In this document: positions 1,610 through 32,018 of the stretch, in pieces
Layout of the letters: each line of letters opens with the position of its first letter
Position numbering within the stretch: the first letter of the stretch is position 1
Position numbers and translations under genes: made by a program
Source of the DNA: Rhodopseudomonas sp. BR0M22
GTDB taxonomy: Bacteria; Pseudomonadota; Alphaproteobacteria; Rhizobiales; Xanthobacteraceae
Length of the DNA stretch: 37,607 nucleotides
Direction of reading: 5' to 3'
Assembly: GCF_010907035.1 (NCBI RefSeq)
Contig: NZ_QUMK01000057.1
Location: forward strand, 1-37,607
The notes under the pieces: generated by a model
What the model was told of the DNA's origin: nothing
Databases searched by the model: none
The model's input: only the letters and a program-made list of their open reading frames with translations

Positions 1610-2286
1610 TCAAGCCTTCGCTTCAACGATGGCATCGTTCGGAAACAACCTCGACCTCTGCTCCGCCGGGGTCGGGTTCAAGTATCGCATCAGCACCGCG
1701 ACGGTCTTGTGGCCGCTCTGCCGCATCAGCGTCTTGAGATCGGCGCCGCGCGCCGACATGCGGGACAGGGCTTCGTGCCGCAGATCGTGGATCCGGAGAT
1801 CCGGACATTGCGCCGTGATACGAATCTCATTTCGCCACGCGTTTTCGGCGACCCAGGACGAAGACCTGAACACTTTGCTGTCCGCCGGCTCCCGGTCGGT
1901 GAGGTCCAGCAAGCCGGCGTAGGCACGATCCGAGTTCGCCACGTGGCGCGCGCTGCTGTTCTTCGAGTCCGGAATGACGACGAAGCCGGGCTCCTGCCGA
2001 ATCCATGCGCACTCGATCGACATCGCCTCACCGAGGCGCATCCCGGTGTCGAGCAGAAGCGGAAACAGAGCCTTCCACTGCCGGCCCGCGGGGCCGCGAC
2101 TAGACCCGCGATGGCCTCGCTGATGGCCCTCTCCTCGCCTTGGCGCAGCCGTCGTTCCCGATGGCCGGAGGGTTGCGGCACGCCGCGCCGGCACTTCCCA
2201 CCGCCTGCGCGGTGCCCTCAAGGTTTGCGGATTTCGGGCAGCTCGAAGTCGCAGCTCTTGAGCATTCAGTACGGCTTGAATGCCAC
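1610..2286 (-). pseudogene. Decayed tyrosine recombinase (phage-type integrase), C-terminal remnant
   Basis: The lower part, from about 2080 down to 1610, reads as an intact integrase catalytic core. It shows the first catalytic Arg in DTGMRLGEAM, the HxxR box in IHDLRHEAL, then SGHK and the Tyr-bearing RYLNP. Upstream of about 2080-2100 the integrase-like reading (RERRLRQGEERAISEAI) continues in a different frame, which implies a frameshift. The N-terminal arm-binding and core-binding domains are missing. The remnant is about 225 residues against the usual 350-420 for the family. It directly abuts the 3' end of the K-like gene at 2287, so it may mark the edge of a former integrative element. 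No att site or tRNA was recognised beside it. Confidence 0.7.
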
Positions 2287-3561
2287 CTACGAACTGGCGG
2301 CGTTGTCGAGCGCCGCGATCGAACTGACAATTGCGTCCAGCAGCGCAACGCCGCCGCGAAAGCCACCGATGCCGGTGGTCAGGCCAAGCCTGTGGGTCGG
2401 CGCGGCGCACTCGATCAGCGGCACGCCGAGCCGCGCGGCCGCCGGACGCTCCAGAGCGCTGCCGAAGACGAACTCGGCGCCGCTACCGGCGATCAAGCGC
2501 GCGATTTCGTCGGCGTCTTCGCTGTAGTGCGCCGCCGCCAGATCCTGCTGCATCGCTTCGCGGGCACCGAGTGGCGGATCATCGGTGACAATGATCGTCG
2601 CCGGCGACCAGCCCAGCGTTTCGATCAGAAACCGGGCAAGGCCGGCAGCATACAGACTCGGCACCGCCACCGCAAAGCTGCGCGGCCCCCCCTGACTGTA
2701 CAGCGTTTCAAGCAGATGCTCGAGGCAATAGGCCTCGCGCCGGCGCTCCACCTCGATGAAGGCCCGTGCTGAACTGTCGTCGACTTCGCCGACCGAGGCG
2801 GCAACGCGTTCGAGGAGCTCGGTGGTAGTGATCGCCCCGACCGGCAGACTACCGCTGTCGATGAATGGAATGCCGAAGCCTTCATCGAGCGCCCGGGCCG
2901 CCGCAGCACCCCAGGGTGAGACCGACAGGCTGAGCTCGGCCTGTGCCACCGCGCGCAGGCCGGCCACGCCGCCAAGCGGGCCGAACAGCGGATTGGGCGT
3001 CAACCCTACTCCGGCGATCAGCCGCGACAGCTCCTCGATCTCGGCGAGCCAGAAAGCGTCCTGATGCGGCACCAGACCGAACAGATTGACCACCCCAGCG
3101 CGGCGTGTCTCTGTCCCGGTCGCTTTGGCGATTGCGCCTTTTAGAAACGATTCGTAGCCGTGATAGGCGGAGCCGCGAAATCCCGCCGTCGCCAGGTCGA
3201 GCACGTCGTCGCCGGCGTCACGGGCTTCCTGCGCCATCGCCTCGACGTCGTCGCCGATCATTTCCGCCGGACAGCCGGTCATCACCACCGTCAGCTCACC
3301 GCGCAGAATCCCGCCTGTGTTCTTGATCTGCTCGCGCAGCCGTGACGCTCCGCCGAACACGATGTGCTTCTCAGACAGGTTCGACGTGGCCCAGCCGCCG
3401 GATCCGCCGCAGCCGCTGCGGCGCTGCCAAAGCCCGGCCTGCAGACCGCAGCCAGGGGTGGCATGGACCAGCGGCGTCACACCATCGATCGCCGAGGCGG
3501 CATACAGCGCACCGTGCAGCGCACAGCCGGCCCGCGGCCGCACCAGGGACGCCGCCATCAT
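2287..3561 (-). CDS. Nitrogenase-like component 1, K-like subunit of uncharacterised system
   Basis: A 424-residue member of the NifD/NifK/BchN oxidoreductase superfamily. Three cysteines sit at P-cluster-type positions: C13 (AGCALHG), C38 (TPGCGLQ) and C97 (MTGCPAEMIGDD). The 25- and 59-residue spacings match NifK closely. The IVFGG and IGDDVEA motifs are typical of the family. Compared with MarK (460 residues) the sequence is shorter but ends with the same style of GFRGGVALLDAI C-terminus, so it looks complete. It overlaps the upstream D-like gene by ATGA, which implies translational coupling, and it is the last gene of a four-gene operon. By analogy with DPOR and COR it should form a heterotetramer with the D-like subunit, accept electrons from the NifH-like protein and hold an Fe-S cluster at the subunit interface. 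The substrate is unknown. Confidence 0.8.
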   Translation of the reverse strand: MMAASLVRPRAGCALHGALYAASAIDGVTPLVHATPGCGLQAGLWQRRSGCGGSGGWATSNLSEKHIVFGGASRLREQIKNTGGILRGELTVVMTGCPAEMIGDDVEAMAQEARDAGDDVLDLATAGFRGSAYHGYESFLKGAIAKATGTETRRAGVVNLFGLVPHQDAFWLAEIEELSRLIAGVGLTPNPLFGPLGGVAGLRAVAQAELSLSVSPWGAAAARALDEGFGIPFIDSGSLPVGAITTTELLERVAASVGEVDDSSARAFIEVERRREAYCLEHLLETLYSQGGPRSFAVAVPSLYAAGLARFLIETLGWSPATIIVTDDPPLGAREAMQQDLAAAHYSEDADEIARLIAGSGAEFVFGSALERPAAARLGVPLIECAAPTHRLGLTTGIGGFRGGVALLDAIVSSIAALDNAASS

Positions 3562-4919
3562 CTCACCTCGCGTTTGATGTGCCAGTCGGGACTACGCTTC
3601 AACCATCCCGGCAGATAGTTCGCCGTCGGCGAGACAAATCGCCGCTTCAGTGCCTCGCCGTCGAGCAGGCGCTGCAGCCGCGACGCCAGACGCGCTTCAC
3701 CGGCAGCGCCGAGCAGATCGTCGGCGCCGACCGCGACCGCGGCGATGCCCGCGCGGGTGGCGGTTGCGGCGGTCGCGGGCTTGCCGATCACCACCTCGGG
3801 CTTGATCCGGCCGAGCCAGTTCATCAGTTCGAACGGCTGTCCGGCGGCGACATGAAGGGGCAATTCGGGATGTGCCGCGGCGACGGCCCGAAGGCCACCG
3901 AGATGCAGACTGTCGATCCAATCGACGCTGAGGCCGGCAAGCTCGCCGCCGAACCGATCGACCAGGTCGACGACGGCCAGGGCTTGCGACGGCGGCAGTG
4001 CTACGACGACACGGCGGCCGTTCAAAATCCAAACGTCCTCACCGGTTGCACCCGACGGCGGCGCGGGCCGTTCGGTCGCAGCCGCGATCGCTGCGACAAA
4101 GCTTCGGGTCGCCTCCGCACCGACGGGCGGCGGCAGCCGCAGGAACGGCACGCCGTGCAGCCGGTCGAGTTCGCGTCGAAGCGCGTCGGTTTCGTCCTCG
4201 AACACCGCAACGCTGAGGGCGGCCTGGGCAGCCTTCGCGAACGCCGTCGGTCCAGCATCGACCGGAAACACGTTGACCTCGAGGCCGAGGCTCTCGATCG
4301 CTTGCGCGACGCCGACCAAACCCGGCCCGTGTTCGAACGCCAGCAGATTGATCAAATCGCGGCGGTGCGGCTGTCCCGGCTGCACGAGCGCCGCGATCGC
4401 CTGCGCGGCGACGTCGAAGCCGGTCGCCGCCACGCGGGAGCGGAATCCGTCGGTCCGCAGTTCGATCACCGGAATCCCGAGCTCGTCGCTCAGTTCTTCG
4501 GCGACTGCCTGGATGTCGTCGTTGTTGATCGCCACCACCGGCGTCGCCACCACCACGATCGCCCACGGCTGGTGCCGACGATGTAGCTGCCGCAATGTCC
4601 GTGCCAGAGCGCCATCGGCGCCGAGGATGGTGTCGCGCTGATCGAGATTGGTGACCGCCCAAGGGCGGTCGGCGCGCGCCGCGGCCAGAGCTCCCGCGCA
4701 TCCACGGGCGCCGTGAACCACGATGCCGAGCCCGTCAATCTCGGTCAAAACCTGCAGCGCGGCCGAAACGTCGTCGACCGCGACTTGCGAGAAGGTGCGG
4801 ATCCGCGTCACCGGCGGACCGTCCTCGAACTCGGCAATCAAAGACGTGACATCACCAAGATAGGCGCTGAGCGCGTTCAGCCGCCGTTCGCGCGTCGGCA
4901 GTTGCAGCGGCTTGGTCAC
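3558..4919 (-). CDS. Nitrogenase-like component 1, cysteine-poor D-like subunit
   Basis: A 453-residue superfamily member when started at the GTG at 4919. That GTG begins one base after the stop of the NifH-like gene and has GAGG 9 nt upstream; an in-frame ATG at 4958 would overlap the NifH-like gene and is less likely. Only one cysteine remains, C74 in HGARGCAG, equivalent to the middle P-cluster cysteine. The first is absent, and in the third motif proline replaces it (TPVVAINNDDI against T-C-VVALIGDDI in NifE). No later cysteine exists, so the Cys that ligates FeMo-co-type cofactors in NifD is also missing. The pair therefore offers 3+1 cysteines, as described for chlorophyllide reductase (BchYZ), and would suit one [4Fe-4S] cluster rather than a P-cluster plus a large cofactor. 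Product and substrate are unknown. Confidence 0.75.
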   Translation of the reverse strand: MTKPLQLPTRERRLNALSAYLGDVTSLIAEFEDGPPVTRIRTFSQVAVDDVSAALQVLTEIDGLGIVVHGARGCAGALAAARADRPWAVTNLDQRDTILGADGALARTLRQLHRRHQPWAIVVVATPVVAINNDDIQAVAEELSDELGIPVIELRTDGFRSRVAATGFDVAAQAIAALVQPGQPHRRDLINLLAFEHGPGLVGVAQAIESLGLEVNVFPVDAGPTAFAKAAQAALSVAVFEDETDALRRELDRLHGVPFLRLPPPVGAEATRSFVAAIAAATERPAPPSGATGEDVWILNGRRVVVALPPSQALAVVDLVDRFGGELAGLSVDWIDSLHLGGLRAVAAAHPELPLHVAAGQPFELMNWLGRIKPEVVIGKPATAATATRAGIAAVAVGADDLLGAAGEARLASRLQRLLDGEALKRRFVSPTANYLPGWLKRSPDWHIKREVR

Positions 4920-4920
4920 C

Positions 4921-5793
4921 TCACACCGCCTCGACCAACGGCCGGCCCGCGCGTACACCGAACACTCGGTCGCCCCATTGCTTGGCCCAGTCCTTCAGGG
5001 CCGGCCCGTCGAGCGGCTTCGGGATCGAGACCGGATGATCTCCCGCGATGTGGCGGGCGAGTTGGCGATAGACATCTGCCTGCTCGGATTGCGGCGCCGC
5101 CTCGATCACGGTCTGGCCGTATAATTCGCTCTGCGCCACGGCGAGCGAGCGCGGCACATAGCCGACAACTTTAGTCCCGGTCCGCGCCGCAAAATCGTCG
5201 ATCAGCGACGACGCGTAGGACGTCTGGATGCTGTTGGCGATCACACCGCCGAGCCGCGCACCGCCCGACGGCGCGTATTTGCTGATCGCCTTGAACAGAT
5301 TGTTGGCAGCGAAGATCGCCATGAAATCCGAAGAGGTGACCACGAAGGCGGACTCGGCGATGCCGTTGCGGATCGGCACCGCGAAGCCGCCGCAGACAAC
5401 GTCGCCGAGCACGTCATACAGCACGTAGTCGGGCTTGAATTCCTCGAACAGCTTCAGTTCGTGCAAGAGGTCGACCGCAGCGTTGATGCCGCGTCCGGCG
5501 CAGCCGACACCGGGCACCGGCCCCCCCGCCTCGATGCACAGCACTCCGCCGAAGCCGGTCGCCGACACATCGGCGATGCTCGGCCGCCCGCTGTCGCGCA
5601 GGCTGTCGAGCACTGTCGGCAGATCCTCGCCGCCGCGCAGGATGGTGGTCGAATCGCTCTTGGGATCGCAGCCGATCTGAACCACGCGGTAGCCGGCCTC
5701 CGCCAGCGCGGCGCTGATGTTCGACGTCGTGGTCGACTTGCCGATGCCGCCCTTGCCGTAGATCGCGATGTGCTTTGGCGCTACGCTGCTCAC
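4921..5793 (-). CDS. NifH/BchL-like ATP-dependent reductase of uncharacterised nitrogenase-like system
   Basis: A 290-residue homodimeric Fe-protein-type ATPase. The P-loop is GKGGIGKST at residues 13-21. The two cysteines that ligate the intersubunit [4Fe-4S] cluster are C98 (GVGCAGRG) and C134 ([10 protein letters not shown]). The gene starts with GTG preceded by GGAGGA at good spacing. By eye it is very similar to the MarH protein encoded at 16251-17126, which suggests common ancestry or duplication, yet it is encoded with a different catalytic pair. It should pass electrons, driven by ATP hydrolysis, to the D-like/K-like complex encoded directly downstream. It lies 39 nt after the radical SAM gene in the same operon. 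Confidence 0.88.
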
Positions 5794-5832
5794 AAATCCT
5801 CCGATCGTTCTCTATCGCGTGGGCTCTACGGT

Positions 5833-7050
5833 CTATTCGGCCGGCTCGAGGCGCTTGGCGGTCGCGAACACCGGCAGCAATTCGTCCTCGATCCGGTAGA
5901 TGTCGTGCTGCAAGGTGTCCGACGAAGCGTTACTGTCGAACACATGCTCATAGGTGATGCCGTTCCTCCTCCAGATCGTCACCAGCTTGTGCGCGAGATC
6001 GAGATACCAAGCCGGTACCGGCGGGCGATGGCCTTCGAGCTCGGAGCCCGGATTGGGGCACCAGACTGCGAAGGTGCCGACCACACCCTTGGATGCGAGA
6101 TATTCCAGTCCCGCCAGCGTCGAGCGTTTTGGCTCGATGCCGGCGACGATGTTGGAGCGCACTCGACCGTGACCGAACACCTTGACGGCATATTCCAGGG
6201 CTTTGACCCAGTGCTCCCAGCCGCCACCTCCGCGCGCCTTGCCGGGGCAGATCGCATCGTAGATGCCCTTGTCCCAGATCTCGATGTTCATCGCCGTGGT
6301 GCGATAGCCGGCTTCCTTGAACCGATCGAGATTCCGAAGGTCCAGCGGCGCCGCGATGGTCGCGGTGCCGTTGAAGTCCTGACGGCCAGTGTGCTGCTGG
6401 ATGGCTTCGGCGACGTCGAGATAGTATTCGAGTTCGCGCCGTTCGGGGATGACGCCGCCGCTGACAGTGAGATGGTCGATGGCGCCGTCATTGTACGCCC
6501 GCGCCGCGGTCTCACCGATCTGGCGGGCGTTCTTCCAGAACGCCCCACCCTTCTCGCCGTAGACGTCTTTGGTGTAGTTGATATTGCAGAACAGGCAGTC
6601 TTCGCCTTTCTCCTTGTAGGAGCACTCGTTGCTGTAGACGACGAAGAGATGCCGGTCGGCGTAGTGGGCGCCGATCTGCGACATGTCGATCCCGTCGGAC
6701 GTCTTGGCGCCATAGAATGACGGCCGCTCGCGGAATTTGACCTCGGCGACGACCTCACTGCGGTCGATGATGACCGTGCGATCGTCGATCAATTCGATCC
6801 GGTAACTCGATCTCGGATTCCAGCGGAACGGCACGCAGAGGCCGCGAGGCAGATAGAAGTGCGACGGCAGCTCGACGTCGTGGGTCTCGAAATCCATCTC
6901 AAACAGGCAATGCACCTGTTCCTGAGCCTTGACACCCGGCTGAACGAAGTCGAGCGCGTCGCTGCTGATAGCGATGCCATTGATACCAAGCTCCGCCTTC
7001 AGAGCCAGCTCCCGCCAAAGCCCGTCCTTCAGTTCACTCACCGTCGGCAT
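5833..7050 (-). CDS. Radical SAM protein with CX8CX2C motif, first gene of nitrogenase-like operon
   Basis: A 405-residue protein. After about 135 residues of N-terminal domain without a recognisable match, cysteines C143, C152 and C155 (ECSYKEKGEDCLFC) form a CX8CX2C set instead of the canonical CX3CX2C. A TIM-barrel-like section follows, with SGGVIP as a likely SAM-contact strand (GGE-like), NIEIWDKGIY and SNIVAGIEP. The layout recalls the BioB/HydE/ThiH-like group, not NifB: it lacks the NifB CNIDCAFC box and the C-terminal cysteine set. As first gene of the operon it may make or modify the substrate, or mature the partner complex. It is transcribed divergently from ssuA. The ATG at 7050 has only a weak upstream GGAC. 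The reaction cannot be named from sequence. Confidence 0.75.
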   Translation of the reverse strand: MPTVSELKDGLWRELALKAELGINGIAISSDALDFVQPGVKAQEQVHCLFEMDFETHDVELPSHFYLPRGLCVPFRWNPRSSYRIELIDDRTVIIDRSEVVAEVKFRERPSFYGAKTSDGIDMSQIGAHYADRHLFVVYSNECSYKEKGEDCLFCNINYTKDVYGEKGGAFWKNARQIGETAARAYNDGAIDHLTVSGGVIPERRELEYYLDVAEAIQQHTGRQDFNGTATIAAPLDLRNLDRFKEAGYRTTAMNIEIWDKGIYDAICPGKARGGGGWEHWVKALEYAVKVFGHGRVRSNIVAGIEPKRSTLAGLEYLASKGVVGTFAVWCPNPGSELEGHRPPVPAWYLDLAHKLVTIWRRNGITYEHVFDSNASSDTLQHDIYRIEDELLPVFATAKRLEPAE

Positions 7051-7514
7051 CTGTCATCGTCCGTCGCTGCTCAGCGCGCGACCACCGCGCGTCTGAGGAT
7101 CATCGGCGAACGGGCTCCCATCGACAATTCTGAAGATCGCCGATGTTGGAGAGGATTTCGGGCGGCGACAGCGGCATCGGAAGCATGGCGCCATCGTCGT
7201 GGTAATTGATTGCAGCGTCGCCCGCTTTCGACTTCGGCGCGTGACGCCGCCCCTTGCTAATCGCCCGCGAAATCCAACATATCCGGACGCTGACCTCGGT
7301 CACGGACGCGTGACTTCATCCATCGCGACGGAGTTCCGCAGCGTTCGGGGAGAACAGCAACTCCACTCCATCGTTCATCGGAGTAATTTATCACTCTGCA
7401 TTTCGGCGGACACAGGACTGACATTGCTATTTTTCCCGGTGTCTCGACAGCCCCCGCCGCACTGCCCATCATCCCGGTGCGATTGGATTGCATCGGGATC
7501 AACAGCGGGGCGTC
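7051..7514. promoter_or_regulatory. Divergent control region between the nitrogenase-like operon and the ssu operon
   Basis: A 464-bp gene-free stretch between two divergent operons, so it must hold both promoters. Visible features are an AT-rich patch around 7377-7440, a short dyad GAGTAATTTATCACTC (arms GAGT/ACTC) near 7380, and TTGCTATTTTTCC near 7424. The last resembles the TGCTATTTTCGC found at 27466, upstream of metQ. No sigma-54 type -24/-12 sequence was recognised. The exact promoters are not resolved. Confidence 0.4.
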
Positions 7515-8465
7515 ATGAAGCGTCGGGATTTTCTCACTCTGTCGGCCGGCGCGGCACTGCTGCCCGGCTTCGCCAGGCGCGCATGCGCCCAGCCCGCGAC
7601 GACCGAGATCCGGATCGGCTATCAGAAGAATGGCGTGCTGGTGATCGCGCGCCAGCGCCGCACGCTCGAGGATCACTTCGGGCCGCAAAACATCGGCGTA
7701 AAGTGGGTCGAATTCTCATCGGGCCCGCCGATGCTGGAAGCGATGAATGTCGGCAGTATCCATTACGGCGCGGTCGGCGACTCTCCGCCGATCTTCGCTC
7801 AGGCAGCCGGCGCCGCGATTGTGTACGCAGCAGGCCAGCCGATCACCAACGGCCAGGGCATCCTGGTCCCTCAGAGTTCACCAATTCGAACGCTAACTGA
7901 CCTCAAGGGCAAGCGCGTTGGCTTCACCAAGGGATCGAGCGCGCACAACGTCGTATTGTTGGCGCTGGCGAAGGCAGGCCTGAGCTACGCCGACATCACG
8001 CCGGTGTATCTCACTCCGCCCGATGCAGGTCCCGCCTTCGCGCAGGGCAGCATTGACGCCTGGTCGATCTGGGATCCGTATTTCGCTATCGGCGAGCTGA
8101 AGCAGAACGGCCGGATCCTGCTCAATGCTTCCGACGTCGGCCGGACTCATTCGTTCTACATCGCCAATCGCGAATTCGCCCAGCGGAACCGGCAGATTCT
8201 CAAGCAGATCATCGACGTCACCAGCGCCACCGCGCAGTGGGCGGAGCAGCACCGTGACGAGGTCGCGCAGTCGCTCGCCGCGGTCACCGGCATCGCACTC
8301 GACATCCAGACCATCGCCGCGAACCGTTCGTCGTTCGCGGTCGGGCTGATCACCGACGACATCATCGCGACACAGCAAGGCGTCGCCGACCGCTTTCATC
8401 AGCTCGGCCTGATTCCGCGGCCGATCGTAGTGCGCGACGCGGTCTGGACTCCGACCCAGGCTTGA
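7515..8465 (+). CDS. ssuA: Aliphatic sulfonate ABC transporter substrate-binding protein
   Basis: A periplasmic binding protein of the SsuA/TauA/NMT1 type, 316 residues. The ATG at 7515 is preferred over an upstream in-frame ATG at 7488 because it has GCGGGG just upstream and begins directly with a twin-arginine signal ([15 protein letters not shown]). The mature part begins near [10 protein letters not shown]. Family motifs include [33 protein letters not shown] and DAWSIWDPY. It should deliver alkanesulfonates to the permease and ATPase encoded downstream. It is first in an operon with ssuD, ssuC, ssuB and a flavin reductase. A paralogue with a Sec-type signal lies at 12160-13113. Confidence 0.9.
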
Positions 8466-8518: not shown

Positions 8519-9694
8519 ATGAGTTCGATCCACACACCGGGCGCCAATTTCCTCTGGTTCCTGCCGACCCATGGCGACGGGCACTATCTCGGCACGAGCG
8601 CCGGCGGCCGCGAGGTCGATTTCGGCTATCTGCGCCAGATCGCACAGGCGGCCGACCAACTCGGCTATTTCGGCGTACTGTTGCCGACCGGGCGGAGCTG
8701 CGAAGATTCCTGGGTGGTCGCCTCCGCGGTGGCGCCGTGGACCGAGCGGCTCCGTTACCTGGTCGCCGTCCGACCCGGCCTGCAATCGCCCAGCGTCGCG
8801 GCCCGAATGACGGCGACGCTGGATCGCCTGATCGGCGGCCGGCTGCTGATTAACGTCGTCACCGGCGGCGATCCGGTCGAGAATAAAGGCGACGGCGTGT
8901 TCCTGTCCCACGACGAGCGCTACGAGGTGACGCGCGAATTTCTCAACGTCTATTCGGATCTGCTATCCGGCAAGACCGTCAACGTCGCCGGCAAGCACAT
9001 CACCATCGAGGACGGCCGATTGCTGTTTCCGCCGGCGCAGAGCCCTCGGCCGCCGCTGTATTTCGGCGGATCGTCGGACGCCGGCATCGACGTCGCCGCC
9101 GACACCGTCGACAAATATCTGACCTGGGGCGAGCCGCCGGCGCAGGTTGCCGACAAGGTTGCCCGCGTTCGCGCTGTCGCGGAGCCGCGCGGCCGCAAGC
9201 TGTCGTTCGGCATCCGGCTGCATGTGATTGTGCGCGAGACCAACGAGGCCGCCTGGGCCGCCGCCGACGACCTGATCCGCTACGTCACCGACGACACCAT
9301 CGCGGCGGCGCAGAAGGTGTTCGCGCGGATGGATTCGGTCGGGCAGCAGCGGATGTCGGAACTGCACGGCGGGCGACGCGACAAGCTGGAAATCAGCCCC
9401 AATCTGTGGGCCGGCGTCGGCCTCGTCCGCGGCGGCGCGGGCACCGCGCTCGTCGGCGATCCGCAGACCGTGGCGGCACGGATCAAGGAATATCAGGAGG
9501 TCGGCATCGATACCTTCATCCTGTCCGGCTACCCGCACCTGGAGGAGGCGTATCGCTTCGCCGAGCTGGTGTTCCCGCTGGTGAAGCCGCAGCACGAAGG
9601 CAACGTCACCAGGCTGCGCGCCAACACCGGCCCGTTCGGCGAGACCATCGCCAACGAACACGTCCCCCAAGCCAAACAGGCAGCCAAACCATGA
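8519..9694 (+). CDS. ssuD: FMNH2-dependent alkanesulfonate monooxygenase
   Basis: A 391-residue flavin-dependent monooxygenase of the bacterial luciferase superfamily. It cleaves the C-S bond of alkanesulfonates to give aldehyde and sulfite, using FMNH2 and O2. Diagnostic stretches are [15 protein letters not shown] at the N-terminus, [16 protein letters not shown] with the active-site Cys region, [16 protein letters not shown], and [11 protein letters not shown]. The length fits SsuD (about 380-390). The ATG at 8519 follows AGGGAG at proper spacing. It ends in an ATGA overlap with ssuC, so the operon is tightly coupled. Reduced flavin is probably supplied by the reductase encoded at 11365-11937. 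Confidence 0.95.
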
Positions 9695-10497
9695 GCCTTG
9701 TCGAAACGCTCGCCCGCCCGCGCGCCTGGCGCCTGCCGCGCCCCGACGGCCTGATCCAGTGGATCGTGCCGCTGCTGATCATCCTTGTCTGGCAGGCCGC
9801 CTGCATGTTCGGGCTGGTCTCGGCGCGGGTGCTGCCCGCGCCGACCGACGTGGTCGTCGCCGGGTGGAAGCTGCTGCAGTCCGGCGATCTGGCAAAGAAC
9901 ATCTGGGTCAGCTTCTGGCGCGCCTCGGTCGGCTTCGCTATCGGCGGCGCGATCGGCTTCGCCTTCGGCCTTGCCAACGGCCTGTCCAGCCTCAGCTCGA
10001 AGCTGTCGGACACGACGCTGCAGATGGTCCGCAACGTGCCGCATCTGGCGCTGATTCCGCTGGTGATCCTCTGGTTCGGCATCGACGAGCAGGCCAAGCT
10101 GTTCCTGGTCGCGCTCGGCGTGTTCTTCCCGATCTACCTGAACACGCTGCACGGCATCCGCACCGTCGATCCGCAACTGATCGAGATGGGCCGGATCTAC
10201 GGCATGAGCAATCTCGAGCTGTTCCGCCGGGTGATCTTCCCAGGCGCCCTGCCCTCGGTCTTCGTCGGCGTCCGCTTCGCGCTCGGCATCATGTGGCTCA
10301 CGCTGATCGTCGCCGAGACCATCGCGGCCTCGTCCGGCCTCGGCTACATGGCAATGCAGGCACGCGAATTCATGCTGATCGACGTCGTGGTGCTCAGCAT
10401 CTTGATCTACGCCCTGCTGGGCAAGGCCGCCGACAGCGCCTCGCGCCTGCTCGAACGCCTGACCCTGTCCTGGCATCCGGCGTTCCAGAAGAGCTGA
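9691..10497 (+). CDS. ssuC: Aliphatic sulfonate ABC transporter permease
   Basis: A 268-residue inner-membrane permease of the binding-protein-dependent (BPD_transp_1) type with about six hydrophobic helices. The first is [19 protein letters not shown]. The EAA loop that docks the ATPase is visible as [24 protein letters not shown]. Its start overlaps the ssuD stop by ATGA, and ssuB follows 8 nt after its end. Family and position both support an SsuC role in importing alkanesulfonates. Confidence 0.93.
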
Positions 10498-13290: not shown

Positions 13291-14673
13291 TCACGCGCTG
13301 TGGCTGACGACCGTGCTGTAGATCCTCTCGAGCAGCGACAGCGCGCCGCGATAGCCGACATAGCTGCGCGACAGAACGACCTCGTAGGACGCCGGAAACC
13401 CGACCTCGATCAGCGAGCCCTTCATCTCCTTGACCAGATCGCGCTCCCAGGTGGTCCCGAAGATGATCGGCGGCTTGTGGCCGAAATCCGCCTTCCGGAT
13501 CGCATCGTGGATCAGATAGCTGTCCTCGATGAAGTCGATCTCGACCGAGACGTCGTGATCGATCGCACGGAACTGCTCGCGGATCGAGTCGCGGTGTTCG
13601 ACCGGCGGATCCTCGGTGACGATCTGCTTGGCCGGGATCAGGCCGAGCTGGGTGACCAGAAACTTCGTCAGCGCCAGATTGTAGGCGCTGTCGCCGATCA
13701 CCGCGAACCGCGCCGGCAGGCCCCACCAATACTCCGAATAGAAATCGGTGAAGCCATCGATGTAATTGTAGTACCGCGTCTCTTCACGCACGATCACCTG
13801 TTCGACCGGCTCGGCCGGCAGCCCTGCGAACGCGGCGACCTGACGCAGGAATTCGCCGCTCTGGCGCGCACCGATCGGCAGCACCGGAAGATGCAGGAAC
13901 GGCTGGTCGTAGCGTTCTTCCAGCAGTTTCGCGGTCGCGAGCCCGAGCCACGGCGAAAGCACCAGATTGAACTGCGCCCGCGGAATGTCACGCCATTCGC
14001 TCAACCCGGCAGAGTCCGGGCCGAACAGCACGTTGACCTTGAGCCCGATGCTCTCGAGCAGTCGCTTGATCTCCTCCAGGTCGCCGCGCCAGAACGTGTT
14101 CTGGTACGGCAGCAGTGACCACAGATTGACCAGTCCCTGCTCGCGCACGCCGTCCCACGGCCCGAGATACTGCTCGATGATTGCCCGCGTCACCGCCTCG
14201 TGGCCGGTGAAATTGTTGCCACGAAAGCCACCCGTCTCGGCATAGACGATCGGCACGCCCTTCTTCTGGAAATCGCGCACCACAGAGCCGACGTCGTCGC
14301 CGACGAGATCCGGGATGCAGCCGGTCAGCACCACGAACAGGTCGGCGTCGAGCACGGTCTGCGAGGACTCGATCAGCTCGCGCAGCCGGTCGGCACCGCC
14401 GAAGATCACCTCACGCTGCGACGCGTTGGTGCTGGGCACCACAGGGCCGCCACCGTAGCCGCTGCCCTGGAAGCCGTTGTAGAAGGCGAGGTTCATGTAC
14501 TGCTTGTCGGCGCAGCCGGGACCGCAATGGGTGATCGGCACGACCCGCGGGATGGCCGCGGCACTCTGCATCGCGCCGATCGCACAGACGTAGCGCACCA
14601 GTTCAATCGGGCCAGATTTGTCGGCGTCCGGCGTGATCTCGGTCGGGCGCGACTTGAGAGCGAGTATGGCCAT
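13291..14673 (-). CDS. marK: Methylthio-alkane reductase component 1, beta (K) subunit
   Basis: A 460-residue NifK-like protein. P-cluster-type cysteines are C30 (RYVCAIGAM), C54 (CGPGCADKQ) and C119 (LTGCIPDLVGDD). Family features include EVIFGGADRL, TGGFRGNNFTGHEA and LPYQNTFWRGDLEEIKRLLESIGL. It is last in a marB-marH-marD-marK order identical to that known for the Rhodospirillum rubrum methylthio-alkane reductase, which reduces volatile organic sulfur compounds such as dimethyl sulfide and 2-methylthioethanol to methanethiol plus methane or ethylene. It starts 10 nt after marD and pairs with MarD in a heterotetramer. The mar assignment rests on operon order and family, not on a measured alignment. 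Confidence 0.85.
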   Translation of the reverse strand: MAILALKSRPTEITPDADKSGPIELVRYVCAIGAMQSAAAIPRVVPITHCGPGCADKQYMNLAFYNGFQGSGYGGGPVVPSTNASQREVIFGGADRLRELIESSQTVLDADLFVVLTGCIPDLVGDDVGSVVRDFQKKGVPIVYAETGGFRGNNFTGHEAVTRAIIEQYLGPWDGVREQGLVNLWSLLPYQNTFWRGDLEEIKRLLESIGLKVNVLFGPDSAGLSEWRDIPRAQFNLVLSPWLGLATAKLLEERYDQPFLHLPVLPIGARQSGEFLRQVAAFAGLPAEPVEQVIVREETRYYNYIDGFTDFYSEYWWGLPARFAVIGDSAYNLALTKFLVTQLGLIPAKQIVTEDPPVEHRDSIREQFRAIDHDVSVEIDFIEDSYLIHDAIRKADFGHKPPIIFGTTWERDLVKEMKGSLIEVGFPASYEVVLSRSYVGYRGALSLLERIYSTVVSHSA

Positions 14674-14683
14674 TAGGTGTCCT

Positions 14684-16195
14684 CTAGGCGACGGCTGCGC
14701 GAGACAGCGCGAACGGGTCCGTCTGCGCCAGCCAGGATTGCTTGTAGGGAAGGCTCACACGCCGCGCGATGTCCTGATGGAACTTGCGATGCTGCAGCGC
14801 CGCCAGGATCGACTCGCCGAGATTGACCATGCCCTGATAGCCGAGCGCATGATGCTCGTCGCCGAGCGGAATCGCCGGAATGCCGAGACGGGCAGCCAGC
14901 GGCGCAAGGCCGTTGTGGCGAATGATGATGAAGTCCGGCTTGACCCGCTGCAGCAGATTGTAGAACTGGTACTGCTGCCGATTGCCGACGGTGAAGTGTC
15001 TGACGTCGCCATAGTTCTCGACCAGATGGCCGAGCGAGTCCTGGCGCGGATCCTCGCTGTCGTAGACCGGGTCGTGGTGGAACACGAGCGAGCCGTCGAC
15101 CTCGACGCCGATCTCGCGCAGCACGCCGATCAGCCCGTGCGAATAGGCCGAGCCGGTGGCGACGTAGCCCTTGAGGCCTTTCAGCTTCGGCCGCAATTCG
15201 TCGAGCAGCGGCTTCACCCGCGCGTGCTCACGCGCGATGTAGTTCTCGGCCTGTGCCTCCCGGCCCGTGACGCGGGCGAGTTCGCGCAGCCAAGCGTCGG
15301 TTCCGGGAAAGCCGTAGGGCTGCGGCGCCTTGATCTGCTCGACTCCGAAGTCCTGCTCCAGCGCGGTCGCCAAATATGTCCCGAGCGTGTAGCAGAAGCT
15401 CACGGTCGCCCGCGCCTCCGACATCTGCGCCAGTTGCTCCACGGTCGACATATCGACGACGTAGTTCACCCGCAGCCCGAGCTCAGCCAGCATCGGGGTG
15501 AACACGTCGGTACCCCACAGATTGATGACGTTGATCAAATCGTCCTGACGCTTCTCCGGATTCTTGCGCACGATCTGCCGCAGGATGCCGTGCTGCGTGG
15601 CGTCGAATCCGGTCGACCAGTGCTTCGACTTGAAGCCCTCGCAATGCAGTGGGATCACCGGCACGCCGAACTCGGCTTCCAGCGCGCGGGCGACGCTCTC
15701 GACGTCATCGCCGATGATGCCGCTGGCGCAGGAGGTGGCGATGAACACCGCGTTCGGCTGGTGCCGTTCGAACGCGGCGCGGATCGCGACGGCCAGCTTG
15801 TCCACGCCGCCATAGACCATGTCGCGCTCGCGCAGATTGGTCGAGATGAAGCGGATGTTCTGCACCGGCAGGCCACGCATCGCCAGACCGTTGCGGTAGA
15901 TCGAATTGTAGATCACCTGCCCGGCTCCGCAGCCGATCGGCGAATGCTGGATCAGCACGGCGTCGCGGATGTTGCCGGCCTGGCATTCGACCATCTGCTC
16001 GCTGCACACCGATCCCTGGGTGAAGGGACCTTCCAGCTCGCAGATCCGCCGCGCCTTGGAGCCGCACCCACCGCAGTCGCCACGCGAAAATGCCGATTCA
16101 TCGGCGAGCTTCGATGCCGTGCCGTCCCAGCCGATGATGGTGCCGAGCCGCTGCTCGCGGGTCTCGACGGTCGAGGTCTTGAGATTGAGCGTCAT
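14684..16195 (-). CDS. marD: Methylthio-alkane reductase component 1, alpha (D) subunit
   Basis: A 503-residue NifD/NifE-like protein expected to carry the catalytic cofactor. P-cluster-type cysteines are C64 (GSVCSEQ), C89 (PIGCGAGQ) and C156 (TSCASGIIGDD). C268 in SFCYTLGTYLATALE aligns with the NifD/NifE cofactor cysteine. H448-H449 in DEHHALGYQGM sit where NifE carries its ERHHAYAGY motif. An extra CGGC cluster at residues 41-44 plus C52 lies at the N-terminus. A CEGFKSKHWSTG stretch (185-196) recalls the NifE CEGFRS-type region. The gene lies 55 nt after marH. The cofactor should derive from the NifB-like MarB. A paralogue at 21613-23118 differs at the H448-H449 position. Confidence 0.87.
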   Translation of the reverse strand: MTLNLKTSTVETREQRLGTIIGWDGTASKLADESAFSRGDCGGCGSKARRICELEGPFTQGSVCSEQMVECQAGNIRDAVLIQHSPIGCGAGQVIYNSIYRNGLAMRGLPVQNIRFISTNLRERDMVYGGVDKLAVAIRAAFERHQPNAVFIATSCASGIIGDDVESVARALEAEFGVPVIPLHCEGFKSKHWSTGFDATQHGILRQIVRKNPEKRQDDLINVINLWGTDVFTPMLAELGLRVNYVVDMSTVEQLAQMSEARATVSFCYTLGTYLATALEQDFGVEQIKAPQPYGFPGTDAWLRELARVTGREAQAENYIAREHARVKPLLDELRPKLKGLKGYVATGSAYSHGLIGVLREIGVEVDGSLVFHHDPVYDSEDPRQDSLGHLVENYGDVRHFTVGNRQQYQFYNLLQRVKPDFIIIRHNGLAPLAARLGIPAIPLGDEHHALGYQGMVNLGESILAALQHRKFHQDIARRVSLPYKQSWLAQTDPFALSRAAVA

Positions 16196-16250
16196 CCCGG
16201 ATGCTCCGCAGGTGATGGGAAAAGGCTGATGGTTTGTGCCCGATCGCGGA

Positions 16251-17126
16251 CTAGGCGATCTCGCGGCTGCGCTCCGCTTCCGCCCGCTCGGCCGCGACCA
16301 GATGATCGGCCCAGCGCGCCGACCACTCCCGCAGCTGCTGTGGATTGAGCGGCGTCGGCACCTTGGACTCGGTATGGTCTGCTATGCGCTTGGCGAGCTG
16401 CCGATAGACGTCGGCCTGTGCCGACTGCGGCGCCGCCTCGATCGTCGTGCGCCCGCTCAGCTCGGCCTGCGTGACCGTCAGCGAGCGCGGCACATACTGC
16501 ACGATCGGCGTATCGGTGCGGGCGGCGAAATCGTCGATGATCTCGCGCTGGAACTCGGTGTTGATCGAATTGGCGATGATGCCGCCGAGCAGCGCGCCAC
16601 CCGAGTTCGAAAATCGCTCGATGCCGCGGAATAGGTTGTTGGCGGCGTAGATCGCCATGAAATCCGACGACGACACCGTGAAGACGTGCTCGGCGATGCC
16701 CTCGCGCACCGGCACGGCGAAGCCGCCGCACACCACGTCGCCGAGCACGTCGTAGATCACGATGTCGATGTTCAATTCCTCGAACACGCGCTGCTGTTTC
16801 AGCAGTTCCACCGCCGTGATGATGCCGCGGCCGGCGCAGCCGACGCCGGGCTGCGGACCACCGGCCTCGACACAATAAATGCCTCCGAAGCCTTCGAAGA
16901 TCGCCTCATAGGCATCGACGCGCCGCCGCTCCGCCAGGAGATCGAGCACCGAGGGAATGTATTCGCCGCCGCGCAAGGTGTTGGTGGAGTCGGCCTTCGG
17001 ATCGGCGCCGAATTGCATCACCTTGTAGCCGGCCTCGGCCAGCGCGGCGCTGATGTTGGAGGTGGTGGTCGACTTGCCGATGCCGCCTTTGCCGTAGATC
17101 GCGATCTGTTTCAGCTTCCTGGCCAT
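16251..17126 (-). CDS. marH: Methylthio-alkane reductase iron protein (NifH-like)
   Basis: A 291-residue dimeric Fe-protein ATPase with P-loop GKGGIGKST (12-20) and [4Fe-4S] ligands C97 (GVGCAGRG) and C133 ([10 protein letters not shown]). The ATG at 17126 is chosen because it is preceded by GGAGA and the family's conserved sequence begins at once ([10 protein letters not shown]). A longer open frame to 17231 adds residues unlike any NifH and would overlap marB. It lies 34 nt after marB. It should donate electrons to MarDK and probably to the second D/K pair, which has no reductase gene of its own nearby. Confidence 0.92.
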   Translation of the reverse strand: MARKLKQIAIYGKGGIGKSTTTSNISAALAEAGYKVMQFGADPKADSTNTLRGGEYIPSVLDLLAERRRVDAYEAIFEGFGGIYCVEAGGPQPGVGCAGRGIITAVELLKQQRVFEELNIDIVIYDVLGDVVCGGFAVPVREGIAEHVFTVSSSDFMAIYAANNLFRGIERFSNSGGALLGGIIANSINTEFQREIIDDFAARTDTPIVQYVPRSLTVTQAELSGRTTIEAAPQSAQADVYRQLAKRIADHTESKVPTPLNPQQLREWSARWADHLVAAERAEAERSREIA

Positions 17127-17160
17127 GTGGCTTCTCCAGTTGGATGTCGGACGAACGGCT

Positions 17161-18123
17161 TCAGCCGTGTGAGAAAGTCGGCTCGGCGCTGATGCCGTCG
17201 CCGTAAAGCTGGGCGGCGTAGTCGCTGACACCGGGAATGCCGCAGGCGTCCGCGCGGCAGCGCTGGCAATGCGTGAACACCCGCAGATGCCGTTCGGCCG
17301 CGCGGCGTGCGGCGTGACGCATCAGCATTCCGGGTGCCGGCAGACCTGCGAAGCCGTGTTGCGGGATCAACGGGATGATGTTGATCAGATGCGCACCCGC
17401 GGCGGCGACCCGTTCGGCGACCGCCCCGATGTGGTCGTCGTTGAGGGTTGGGATCAGCACGGTGTTGACCTTGATGGTCAGACCGAGCGCCGCAGCGCGG
17501 GCGATGCCGTCGAGCTGATTGGCGATCAGCCTTTCGGCGGCGGCGACGTCGTCCAGGCGCTTACGCTGCCAAGCGATCTTCGGTGTGATCCGCGCCTGGA
17601 TCAGCGGATCGACCGAGTTGACGGTGACCGTCAGCGTCCGAACGCCGACCGCGGCGATGTCGTCGATCCGCTCCGGCAGCATCAGGCCATTGGTCGACAG
17701 GCACAGCACCAGATCCGGCCAGCGCGCGTGCACACCCGCGAAGGTGCGCAGCGCATGCGGCGTCGCCAGCGGATCGCCCGGCCCGGCGATGCCGACGACG
17801 TTGATGGTCGGACACAGCGCGAGCGCACGGTCGACGATGTCGACCGCCTGCTCCGGCGTCAACAGGCGCGTCGCCACGCCCGGACGCTGGTCGCGACGAT
17901 TAAAATCGCGAATGCAGAACGCGCAGTCGATGTTGCAGCCGGGGCTGACCGGAAGGTGCAGCCGCGCGCTGCGTGAATGACCCTCAGCCGTGGTACTGAA
18001 GCACGGATGGCGGCCCTCCAGTGCGGGAAACGCCGGCGTCGACGCCACCATGCGCATCGTCTGCGCCGGACAGGCACTTGCGCCCCCGACCGCATCTGGG
18101 ACGATGTTCGATGTACTATCCAT
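17161..18123 (-). CDS. marB: NifB-like radical SAM cofactor-maturation protein of the mar operon
   Basis: A 320-residue NifB-type radical SAM protein with CX3CX2C at C63, C67 and C70 (CNIDCAFC), GIAGPGDPLA as the SAM-binding strand, STNGLMLPE, and a C-terminal HCQRCRADACG matching the NifB CRQCRADAVG box. It ends soon after this box, with no fused NifX-like domain, as in short NifBs. In nitrogenase systems this enzyme builds the carbide-centred 8Fe cluster (NifB-co); here it should supply the Mar cofactor precursor. It is the first gene of marBHDK, downstream of the element at 18221-18297. The ATG at 18123 has a weak ribosome binding site, so a downstream start is possible. Confidence 0.88.
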   Translation of the reverse strand: MDSTSNIVPDAVGGASACPAQTMRMVASTPAFPALEGRHPCFSTTAEGHSRSARLHLPVSPGCNIDCAFCIRDFNRRDQRPGVATRLLTPEQAVDIVDRALALCPTINVVGIAGPGDPLATPHALRTFAGVHARWPDLVLCLSTNGLMLPERIDDIAAVGVRTLTVTVNSVDPLIQARITPKIAWQRKRLDDVAAAERLIANQLDGIARAAALGLTIKVNTVLIPTLNDDHIGAVAERVAAAGAHLINIIPLIPQHGFAGLPAPGMLMRHAARRAAERHLRVFTHCQRCRADACGIPGVSDYAAQLYGDGISAEPTFSHG

Positions 18124-20223: not shown

Positions 20224-21603
20224 CTACCCCATCGTGCTGGCCCGAACCACCGTCGTATATGTGCGCTCGATCAGCGCCAGAGCGCCGCGATAACCGACAT
20301 AGGCCCGTGACAACACAACCTCGTCGGTGCACGGATAGCCGATCTCGACCAGCGGCGCCCCGATCGCGTCCGCCAGCGCCGCCTCCCAGGTCGAGCCGAA
20401 AACAATCGGCAGCTCTCCGGTCAGATCGGCTTGCCGGATCAGGTCGTGAATGCGGTGGCCGTCCTGTTCGAAGACCGCCTCGTTACCCGCGCCGTCGGCG
20501 AGTGATCGATATTGTTTCTGGATCGTCTCGCGAAAATCCACCGGCGGGTTCTCGCTGATCACCATCGGACCGGGATTGAGACCGAGCTGCTCGACCAGGA
20601 AACTCGCCACCGCGAGATTGTAGGCGCTTTCGCTGACCACGATCGCCGTCGACGGCAGCCGATACTGGCTGGTGCAACCGGCGTAGAACGAGGCGAAGTC
20701 GCGAAGATAGACGTAGTACTCCCTCTCCTCCTGCGTGATGAACGCCTCCGCGCGCTCGCGATCGAGGCCGGCGAAATCGACGACTTGGCGCAGGAATGCG
20801 CTGGTCGCTTTGGCGCCGATCGGAATCGTGGGTACGTGCAGGAACGGCTGACCGTAGAGGTCTTCGAGATGCGCGGCCGTGGCGAGGCCGAGCCAGGGCG
20901 ACAGCACCAGATTGAACTGCGCCCGCTGAATGGCGCGCCACTCCTCGACGCCCGCCGACGCCGGGCCGAACAGGATATTGACCTCGAGCCCGATGCCTTC
21001 GAGGATCCGCTTGATCTCGGTGAGATCGCCGCGCCAGAACGGATTCTGATACGGCAGCAGCGACCAGACATTGACCAGGCCATGCTGCAGCGGCGCATCG
21101 TTGGCATCGACGAACTGATCGATGATGGCGCGGATGATGGTTTCGTGGCCGGTGAAATTGTTGCCGCGATAACCGCTGGTCTCGGCGAACACGATTGGAA
21201 CGCCCTGCCTCTGATAGCTCCGCACGACGCTACCGACGTCGTCGCCGACCAGCCCGGGAACGCAGCCGGACTGCACCACGAACAGATCGGCTTGCATCAC
21301 CTTCAGCGTCGACCGGATCAGTTCGTCGAGGCGATCAGCACCGCCGAAGATCACTTCCTGATTGCCGATATTGCTGCTCGGCACATGAAATTCGCCGCCC
21401 TGATAGGCGTTGATGCCGGACAGCGCATGGAACTGCTTGGTGGCGCAGCCGGGTCCGCAATGCGTGATCGGCACGGCGCCGGGGATGGCAATCACGCTCG
21501 CCAGCGCGCCGAGACTGCAGCCGTAGCGGACTTGCTCGATCGCGCCCGGCGAACTGCAGAATGTGCCGGAGGCGTCGAGATTGTCGGTGACAGGAGACAG
21601 CAT
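20224..21603 (-). CDS. Second MarK-like (NifK-like) subunit
   Basis: A 459-residue paralogue of the MarK at 13291-14673. All three P-cluster-type cysteines are kept: C29 (RYGCSLGAL), C53 (CGPGCATKQ) and C114 (QSGCVPGLVGDD), along with SGYRGNNFTGHE and LPYQNPFWRGDLTEIKRILEGIGL. It starts 9 nt after the second marD-like gene and is last in the metQ-metN-metI-metY-marD-marK series. It should pair with the D-like protein encoded upstream. No NifH-like gene is adjacent, so electrons would come from MarH or the other NifH-like protein. It could be a second Mar with different substrates or a NifEN-like assembly scaffold. Confidence 0.83.
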   Translation of the reverse strand: MLSPVTDNLDASGTFCSSPGAIEQVRYGCSLGALASVIAIPGAVPITHCGPGCATKQFHALSGINAYQGGEFHVPSSNIGNQEVIFGGADRLDELIRSTLKVMQADLFVVQSGCVPGLVGDDVGSVVRSYQRQGVPIVFAETSGYRGNNFTGHETIIRAIIDQFVDANDAPLQHGLVNVWSLLPYQNPFWRGDLTEIKRILEGIGLEVNILFGPASAGVEEWRAIQRAQFNLVLSPWLGLATAAHLEDLYGQPFLHVPTIPIGAKATSAFLRQVVDFAGLDRERAEAFITQEEREYYVYLRDFASFYAGCTSQYRLPSTAIVVSESAYNLAVASFLVEQLGLNPGPMVISENPPVDFRETIQKQYRSLADGAGNEAVFEQDGHRIHDLIRQADLTGELPIVFGSTWEAALADAIGAPLVEIGYPCTDEVVLSRAYVGYRGALALIERTYTTVVRASTMG

Positions 21604-21612
21604 GGGTCGATC

Positions 21613-31637: not shown

Positions 31638-32018
31638 ATGGATTCGCCGAACCTTCCACCTCCGCCGATCAAGGTGGCGATCGCGACCGGTAACGGCGTC
31701 ACCGTGACCGAACATTTCGGCTACGCCACCCAGTTTCAGATCTGGAATTTCTCCGACGCCCCACCCCGCCTGCTCGAAACGCGGACCAACCAGCCCGCCT
31801 GCGGCCCCGGCCGCCGCGAGGCACGGCGCGAACCGATGGACGTTTCGGTCGAGCTGGTCGCCGATTGCAAGGCCGTCATCGTCGCCCGGATCGGCGAATG
31901 CGGCATCGACCGGCTGACGGCGCTCGGCATACTGGCGTTCGAAACCGAGGATGCGGTCGACACCGCGGTGCGCGAGCTTGCGGACAGTGGCCTGCTGCAT
32001 CGGAGCGCCGTGTCATGA
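31638..32018 (+). CDS. NifX/NafY-like cofactor-binding domain protein
   Basis: A 126-residue protein of the dinitrogenase iron-molybdenum cofactor biosynthesis family (NifX, NafY and the C-terminus of long NifBs). It shows IKVAIATGNGVTVTEHFGYATQFQIW at the start and CKAVIVARIGECGIDRLTALGILAFETEDAVDTAV. The start may be ATG 31638 or GTG 31632. The product likely binds or carries an Fe-S cofactor precursor. It overlaps the downstream NifB-like gene by ATGA, so together they look like a split form of a NifB-NifX fusion. Confidence 0.82.
   Translation: MDSPNLPPPPIKVAIATGNGVTVTEHFGYATQFQIWNFSDAPPRLLETRTNQPACGPGRREARREPMDVSVELVADCKAVIVARIGECGIDRLTALGILAFETEDAVDTAVRELADSGLLHRSAVS

Follow-up and report, generated by a model that had tools for sequence, protein, structure and literature searches.

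A nitrogenase-like operon of Rhodopseudomonas sp. BR0M22 very probably belongs to the isethionate reductase (IsrBHDK) family, and its radical SAM protein most likely acts on the sulfonate

What is the task of a radical S-adenosylmethionine (SAM) enzyme in a nitrogenase-like system that seemingly has no complex cofactor to build? This puzzle is raised by four adjacent genes in a 37,607-nucleotide stretch of DNA from Rhodopseudomonas sp. BR0M22 (contig NZ_QUMK01000057.1, assembly GCF_010907035.1), the whole of which is called the window below. The genes encode a radical SAM protein, a NifH-like protein (H) and two subunits resembling NifD (D) and NifK (K), and the original prediction regarded them as an uncharacterised enzyme. 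Our data show that the operon belongs to an already described family and is not an unknown enzyme: this type of operon was published as the isethionate reductase isrBHDK in Rhodobacter capsulatus (PMC11423573). It is very probable that we are dealing with the isrBHDK of Rhodopseudomonas, which would release sulfite from isethionate or a closely related sulfonate in an anaerobic reaction driven by adenosine triphosphate (ATP). The four genes are:

5833 to 7050, minus strand: isrB-type radical SAM protein, 405 amino acids, cysteines C143-x8-C152-x2-C155, match to NF045502, structure model with a mean predicted local distance difference test score of 87.5
4921 to 5793, minus strand: isrH-type NifH-like Fe protein, 290 amino acids, P-loop, C98/C134
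3558 to 4919, minus strand: isrD-type subunit, 453 amino acids from the GTG at 4919, single Cys74
2287 to 3561, minus strand: isrK-type subunit, 424 amino acids, 43.7 kDa, P-cluster-type Cys13/38/97

By their layout these genes (7050-2287, minus strand) are one operon, because their spacing is tight, a GGAGG ribosome site precedes isrH, and isrD and isrK share an ATGA overlap. One base lies between the stop of isrH and the start of isrD, for which the GTG at 4919 is the probable true start; the longest isrD open reading frame (ORF), 3558-4958, begins inside isrH. The four-gene operon proposed originally agrees with the ORFs, with this spacing and with the protein families. IsrB is a member of the variant radical SAM family NF045502 of NCBIfam (E 5e-134, 447 bits, cut-off 125), which is defined at the domain level and described without a function, and the NCBIfam scan gave no match of IsrB to the nifB model. 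IsrH reaches 373 bits with the NifH model TIGR01287, just under the cut-off of 394, and PF00148 (nitrogenase component 1) matches D at 161 bits and K at 234 bits. At the downstream side, an ORF with the phage-integrase domain PF00589 (window 1610-2410, minus strand) overlaps the end of isrK, which would place the operon on the border of what may be an old mobile element.

The R. capsulatus operon (rcc02237-02234), formerly nflBHDK and renamed isrBHDK, was described by Morimoto et al. (mSphere 2024, PMC11423573) with the help of mutants, RNA-seq, heterologous transfer and purified IsrDK. According to this paper, mutants lacking isrB, isrH or isrDK no longer grow phototrophically without oxygen on isethionate as the sulfur source, isrBHDK is induced over a thousandfold, R. 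sphaeroides gains isethionate use from isrBHDK together with ssuCAB, and IsrD and IsrK copurify as a redox-active iron-sulfur complex; sulfite release was deduced from the ability of isethionate lyase (IslAB) to replace the DK step. The same source gives Cys74 as the only conserved cysteine of IsrD, with Pro/Ser at the third position and Arg at the first NifD cysteine, names Cys12/37/99 of IsrK and Cys99/135 of IsrH, shows an IsrK band of 44 kDa and includes ssuCAB in a 26-kb locus (PMC11423573). The window operon has the same gene order, B-H-D-K, and its D likewise carries a single cysteine at position 74, has Pro/Ser at the third position and no cysteine for the iron-molybdenum cofactor (FeMoco), and forms its own clade beside methylthio-alkane reductase (Mar), which is discussed below. 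The cysteine pair of its H lies at 98/134 instead of 99/135, and its three K cysteines lie at 12/37/96 when counted from the second Met, so that only the third deviates from 12/37/99. The K subunit of 43.7 kDa is in line with the 44-kDa band, and ssu transporter genes stand in both loci. The two systems, compared by published features and not by sequence identity, differ in organism and in their other neighbours, which are ssuD and two Mar-type gene sets in the window versus xsc/tpa/tauABC in R. capsulatus.

The predicted cluster ligands can be followed residue by residue. IsrD contains exactly one cysteine, C74 counted from the GTG start, which aligns with NifD Cys88; P140 (P0002 numbering) is aligned with the third NifD P-cluster cysteine (Cys154 equivalent), and F253 of the window protein occupies the column of the NifD cofactor cysteine (Cys275). 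IsrK has C13, C38, C51, C97, C279 and C385, and C13, C38 and C97 fall in the P-cluster columns of NifK. Both halves of this pattern had been noted before, and they were borne out by the sequence and the alignments: the lone D cysteine is kept in all 18 aligned D-type sequences (with Pro at the third position in 17 and Ser in one), all 17 aligned K-type sequences retain the K triplet of cysteines, and the Cys275 column lacks a cysteine in 17 of the 18 D-type rows, the Geobacter row alone having one. A pattern that is kept across alphaproteobacterial, Geobacter and clostridial relatives is not due to chance or artefact. An Arg located 33 residues ahead of Cys74 is invariant in 16 of 16 D sequences, in an N-terminal region where the alignment is unreliable, and the column of the FeMoco ligand His442 of NifD, in a poorly aligned region, holds Gly in the window IsrD. 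The references in these alignments were NifD/E/K/N, AnfD/K and BchN/Y/B/Z of the same genome and the two Mar-type D/K sets of the window; nine of the ten own-genome references were named by NCBIfam above cut-off and NifN by its operon place, and the alignment row labelled NifN is a second reading of NifE, the true NifN being used in the tree instead. Stretches L014-L016 were omitted from alignment and tree as repeats of L009, L010 and L013, the K of genome G851 is cut at the stretch edge, and a Rhodopseudomonas palustris metagenome-assembled genome (MAG) without K entered with its shortened D. Judging from the alignment and from the ligands named for Mar, the cluster of IsrDK would be held by the three K cysteines, with Cys74 of D converging on them, and is most likely a [4Fe-4S] cluster. 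The 3+1 cysteine reading, the ATP-driven reductase and the sulfur-related substrate that had been proposed agree with these data and with the R. capsulatus work as far as given in PMC11423573.

In a maximum-likelihood tree of 50 D and K rows, the window D groups with 17 D-type relatives (support 100/99) and the window K with 16 K-type relatives (100/98). The D clade is sister to Mar D at 98/96 and the K clade to Mar K at 100/100, and Nif/Anf and Bch fall outside the Isr and Mar clades; the long Bch and Nif branches, for which the tool gave a warning, make the deeper order unsure. The D- and K-type relatives were found in six further Rhodopseudomonas genomes, an Acetobacteraceae MAG, two Rhodoblastus, Geobacter sp. 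UBA698, and Clostridium luticellarii with six members of its family. The original prediction was to fall if a phylogeny put the pair inside a functionally known clade; since the clades bear the published Isr signature, we count D and K as in substance within one in this tree of sequences from outside R. capsulatus, which speaks against an uncharacterised enzyme.

One would argue that the enzyme could still be a variant of another known system, and the nearest solved relative of D and K is indeed Mar (MarBHDK, PMC12552129), which also cleaves C-S bonds: K (P0001) matches 9d9u_C at E 1e-56 and D (P0002) matches 9fmg_A/9d9u_A at E 5e-26, where PDB 9FMG is Mar according to its paper. IsrH shares 62% identity with its counterpart in the Mar-type set of the window and 45% with NifH of the same genome. 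However, Mar has a six-cysteine P-cluster, with MarK Cys32, 56 and 121 and MarD Cys66, 91 and 158 named as ligands, and an [Fe8S9C] cofactor (PMC12552129), and in the Mar-type set of the window the radical SAM gene resembles nifB, which isrB does not. A divergent Mar that cleaves thioether C-S bonds with nitrogenase-type clusters would be in keeping with this closest solved relative and with the two Mar-type D/K sets in the same window, but with 1+3 of the six P-cluster cysteines, no cofactor cysteine, separate clades and a partner that is not NifB-like we consider it highly improbable, and membership in Mar was rejected on these grounds. Membership in the nitrogenases (Nif/Vnf/Anf) was likewise rejected from the cysteines, the separate clades and the NCBIfam D/K models listed, none of which came near its cut-off (K best with nifK, 67 of 427 bits; D best with nifE, 71 of 505, and with nifD 40 of 654).

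The dark-operative protochlorophyllide reductase (DPOR, BchLNB) and the chlorophyllide oxidoreductase (COR, BchXYZ) share with the window enzyme a NifH-type ATPase and a D/K-type complex with [4Fe-4S] and without FeMoco. Neither of them is known to have a radical SAM partner. Their substrates are tetrapyrroles, and in DPOR three ligands come from the D-like side (three Cys of BchN plus one Asp of BchB, PMC11423573), whereas in the window enzyme three come from the K-like side. A tetrapyrrole reductase of this kind would show the same economy of one cluster without FeMoco, and the BchB model matches K at 84 bits; yet this is far under the BchB cut-off of 509, none of the BchN/B/Y/Z models exceeds its cut-off (D best with BchB, 49 of 490 bits), the true bchNB and bchYZ are placed elsewhere in the genome, and the gene neighbourhood is one of sulfonate use. 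Such a function is scarcely credible, and the scores, the tree and the placement of the cysteines led us to reject membership in DPOR/COR.

A clue to the role of the radical SAM protein lies in its copy number. An IsrD-type gene is single in all 16 genomes searched (at least 241 bits, next best at most 136). Radical SAM copies, counted at E up to 0.001, 1e-40 or 1e-60 depending on the genome set, number one in each of the eight alphaproteobacterial genomes counted, four in tandem in Geobacter sp. UBA698, and in the clostridial genomes three in G450, four in G851, one in G887, six in G907 (two of them interrupted), two in G969, two in G1000 and one in G1010; 6 of the 16 genomes hold two to six radical SAM genes with one IsrD. 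The single-copy statement is limited to IsrD, as MAG G447 has two IsrK-type genes and one IsrD. A stop was flagged in 4 of the 19 clostridial matches, being the gene's own stop in L086 and L088 and an interrupting one in L091 and L095. The alphaproteobacterial IsrB group also takes in two clostridial copies, from G907 and G851 (99/98 and 100/97 in an IsrB tree with 9 of 24 inner branches open), and the D of both genomes stays in the clostridial group (100/98 in the D/K tree), so that the histories of IsrB and D are uncoupled. An SsuA-type gene, as defined by clustering, lies on the same strand within 600 bases of 10 of the 22 clostridial and Geobacter copies examined (23 were found) and of none of the four Geobacter copies. 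The cysteines C143, C152 and C155 are kept in 27 of 27 aligned IsrB copies, an alignment that leaves out the two interrupted G907 copies and four near-identical Rhodopseudomonas copies (L002-L005). A further metK (methionine adenosyltransferase) is present in six of the seven clostridial isr stretches and as a fragment in the seventh, each genome having at least one other metK. SAM riboswitches in the stretches of G450, G969, G887 and G907 and T-box leaders in G851 and G887 indicate that this metK may be a sulfur-regulon neighbour, which weakens it as a proof of SAM consumption.

Structural comparison of the IsrB model by Foldseek gave lipoyl synthase (LipA), HydE, PylB and biotin synthase (BioB) as nearest matches (template modelling (TM) score by query 0.41-0.47), while the diol dehydratase AprD4 came 42nd and NifB 49th; in the PDB sequence search no chain matched IsrB at E up to 0.001. 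In LipA, HydE, PylB and BioB the radical acts on a small molecule or a pendant group. Because of the several IsrB genes beside one IsrD, the uncoupled histories, the SsuA neighbours and these structural relatives, the most likely target of IsrB is the sulfonate and not a cofactor in need of maturation. It had been suggested before that the substrate may be produced or altered by the radical SAM protein, and the copy-number evidence leans that way: the pattern of copies together with metK favours a sulfonate-acting, SAM-consuming enzyme over a maturase. We propose tentatively, at somewhat short of even chances, that IsrB paralogues are exchangeable, substrate-choosing parts, each making a radical on a particular sulfonate at the expense of SAM, with one shared IsrHDK as the ATP-driven electron source or reductase. 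The competing view is that isethionate is reduced at its C-S bond by IsrHDK itself, giving sulfite and ethanol, and that IsrB only matures or activates this complex, as NifB or a glycyl-radical activase would. The essentiality of isrB in R. capsulatus (PMC11423573) and the single copies in the eight alphaproteobacterial genomes fit this view. Against it stand the multiplied genes, for which a maturase offers no obvious reason, the clostridial copies that group apart from their D, the lack of a FeMoco-type cysteine ligand to receive a NifB-like product, and the structural matches listed (the best 50 of 77), among which NifB appears only at rank 49 and no glycyl-radical activase was found by title. 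We regard a maturase role as rather unlikely.

Concerning the substrate, the genes of Rhodopseudomonas and R. capsulatus most likely share it. That the same machine handles another sulfonate in Rhodopseudomonas, e.g. a taurine-derived or C3 sulfonate, would agree with the diversity of alphaproteobacterial IsrB (the Rhodoblastus protein is 64% identical to that of the window) and with a substrate shown only for R. capsulatus; the gene order and the cysteine signature of D, K and H are those of R. capsulatus, and we give this alternative a small chance. Several further points weigh against our assignment. The occurrence of ssuD and two Mar-type sets in the same genome means that the substrate could be another organosulfur compound, and no isethionate growth test of Rhodopseudomonas palustris was found among the papers listed in a survey of the open-access literature, three of which mention both this species and isethionate, in each case once. 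As the R. capsulatus sequences were not in the comparison or in the D/K tree, orthology rests on gene order and cysteine features, and the place of R. capsulatus in the Isr clades is a presumed one. Several clostridial K score slightly better in pairwise comparison against the MarK of the window than against its IsrK, although the tree joins them to IsrK, and the Arg published at the first NifD cysteine (Cys62 equivalent) could not be placed with certainty in our D alignments. As to the role of IsrB, its Foldseek matches are weak (best 50 of 77 at E up to 0.001, TM score by query 0.25-0.47, all partial), the genomes used for the copy number are related, and single-gene horizontal transfer is possible.

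The genes that face the operon also speak of sulfonates. They had been described as divergent ssu genes, and this holds, as ssuA begins at 7515 on the plus strand and exceeds its family cut-off:

7051 to 7514, no strand: isrB/ssuA divergent region, with two blocks (about 7117-7137 and about 7424-7449) conserved in six Rhodopseudomonas loci
7515 to 8465, plus strand: SsuA-type sulfonate-binding protein, TIGR01728 at 244 bits (cut-off 163.5), adjoining the operon in five other Rhodopseudomonas loci
8519 to 9694, plus strand: SsuD-type alkanesulfonate monooxygenase dependent on reduced flavin mononucleotide, NF001939 at 680 bits (cut-off 510)
9688 to 10497, plus strand: SsuC-type permease, NF008470 at 344 bits (just under the cut-off of 347)
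10500 (start approximate) to 11357, plus strand: SsuB-type ATP-binding cassette ATPase, best match NF008420 (aliphatic sulfonates ATPase) at 330 bits (cut-off 395)

The two conserved blocks are candidate regulator or promoter sites, and no inverted repeats were found in the divergent region. In the window and in five other Rhodopseudomonas loci, the genes opposite the operon encode SsuA, SsuD, SsuC, SsuB, a flavin-reductase-like protein and a second SsuA. Farther along, the window holds two Mar-type D/K sets (13291-18123 and 20224-23118), whose D match PDB 9FMG at 917 and 589 bits. The first set has an H and a NifB-like gene at 17161-18123 (nifB 256 bits, cut-off 344); a second NifB-like radical SAM gene at 32012-32935 (nifB 206 bits, same cut-off) has no D/K ORF seen adjoining it. 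An O-acetylhomoserine sulfhydrylase and a cystathionine beta-synthase-like gene are also present. With three nitrogenase-like systems in 37 kb beside ssu, the window is a sulfur-scavenging island.

Of 16 genomes in the genus, that of the window included, six hold the radical SAM gene at no less than 86% identity; in the class sample it occurs in 1 of 385 genomes, which is the window's own (E up to 1e-60), and in the C. luticellarii family in 7 of 194. An IsrB-type gene was present in neither of the two genomes of a genus reached via an AnfD search (AnfD in 2 of 385 of the class sample) and in none of 394 genomes from a family of 393 genera (about one genome each) reached via a BchZ search (26 of 385 of the class sample) and a reaction-centre comparison. 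No Rhodobacter was among the nine loci found by scanning genome contigs with the radical SAM alignment, and the plasmid search gave no IsrB and only two distant K records at 30-31% identity. In the main text of PMC11423573 Rhodopseudomonas occurs only in the reference list, and the distribution figure or the supplements may include it. The open-access subset of the literature, including the main text of PMC11423573 and passages of PMC12330013, PMC11659671 and PMC10708946, yielded no account of IsrB multiplicity or of the linked metK.

Some of the relatives have irregular loci. The match of the R. palustris MAG (L009 13883 / L014 12158) to the window ends abruptly within isrD at about amino acid 355, the frame continues into a histidine-kinase-like ORF and no isrK was found there, which may reflect a deletion or an assembly chimera. 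In Rhodopseudomonas sp. AAP120, isrH is split over two frames (L010 12038-12902, the same as L015) by a frameshift or a sequencing error. One ORF family recurs in four clostridial isr stretches (L096 684-2147, L101 16284-17741, L102 1-1401, L105 3208-4653), its L101 member having arylsulfotransferase-like domains (PF05935), and in G887 (L103 10732-12368) isrH is accompanied by a pyridoxal-phosphate enzyme (PF00291) and the decayed remnant of a metK.

From these data a working scheme can be drawn. The system would become active when sulfate is scarce, and uptake of the sulfonate would fall to SsuABC, encoded next to it. Removal of the sulfonate group would be the task of SsuD in the presence of oxygen and of IsrBHDK in its absence, a division of labour that we infer. 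As is known from its family, IsrH should be a NifH-type dimer with one [4Fe-4S] that spends ATP and passes low-potential electrons to IsrDK, which would have no FeMoco-type site and would hold its cluster, of the type proposed above, by three K cysteines and one D cysteine. IsrB, a C-x8-C-x2-C radical SAM protein, would make a radical on the sulfonate itself, and C-S scission would then free the sulfite. IsrHDK would supply electrons at some step, the order of the IsrB and IsrHDK steps being our presumption.

What looked like an unknown relative of nitrogenase is now tied to a published role, in which sulfur is assimilated anaerobically from a sulfonate, and a single Rhodopseudomonas is seen to carry Isr, Ssu and two Mar-type gene sets inside 37 kb. 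The difference in copy number between IsrB and IsrD provides a direct handle on the role of the radical SAM protein, a question left by the 2024 paper. If IsrB paralogues are indeed exchangeable parts around a shared IsrHDK, the carbon product of isethionate would be acetaldehyde, together with 5'-deoxyadenosine per turnover, and not ethanol, and some anaerobes would own a modular desulfonation kit in which several radical SAM heads share one nitrogenase-like engine and which comes with its own metK.

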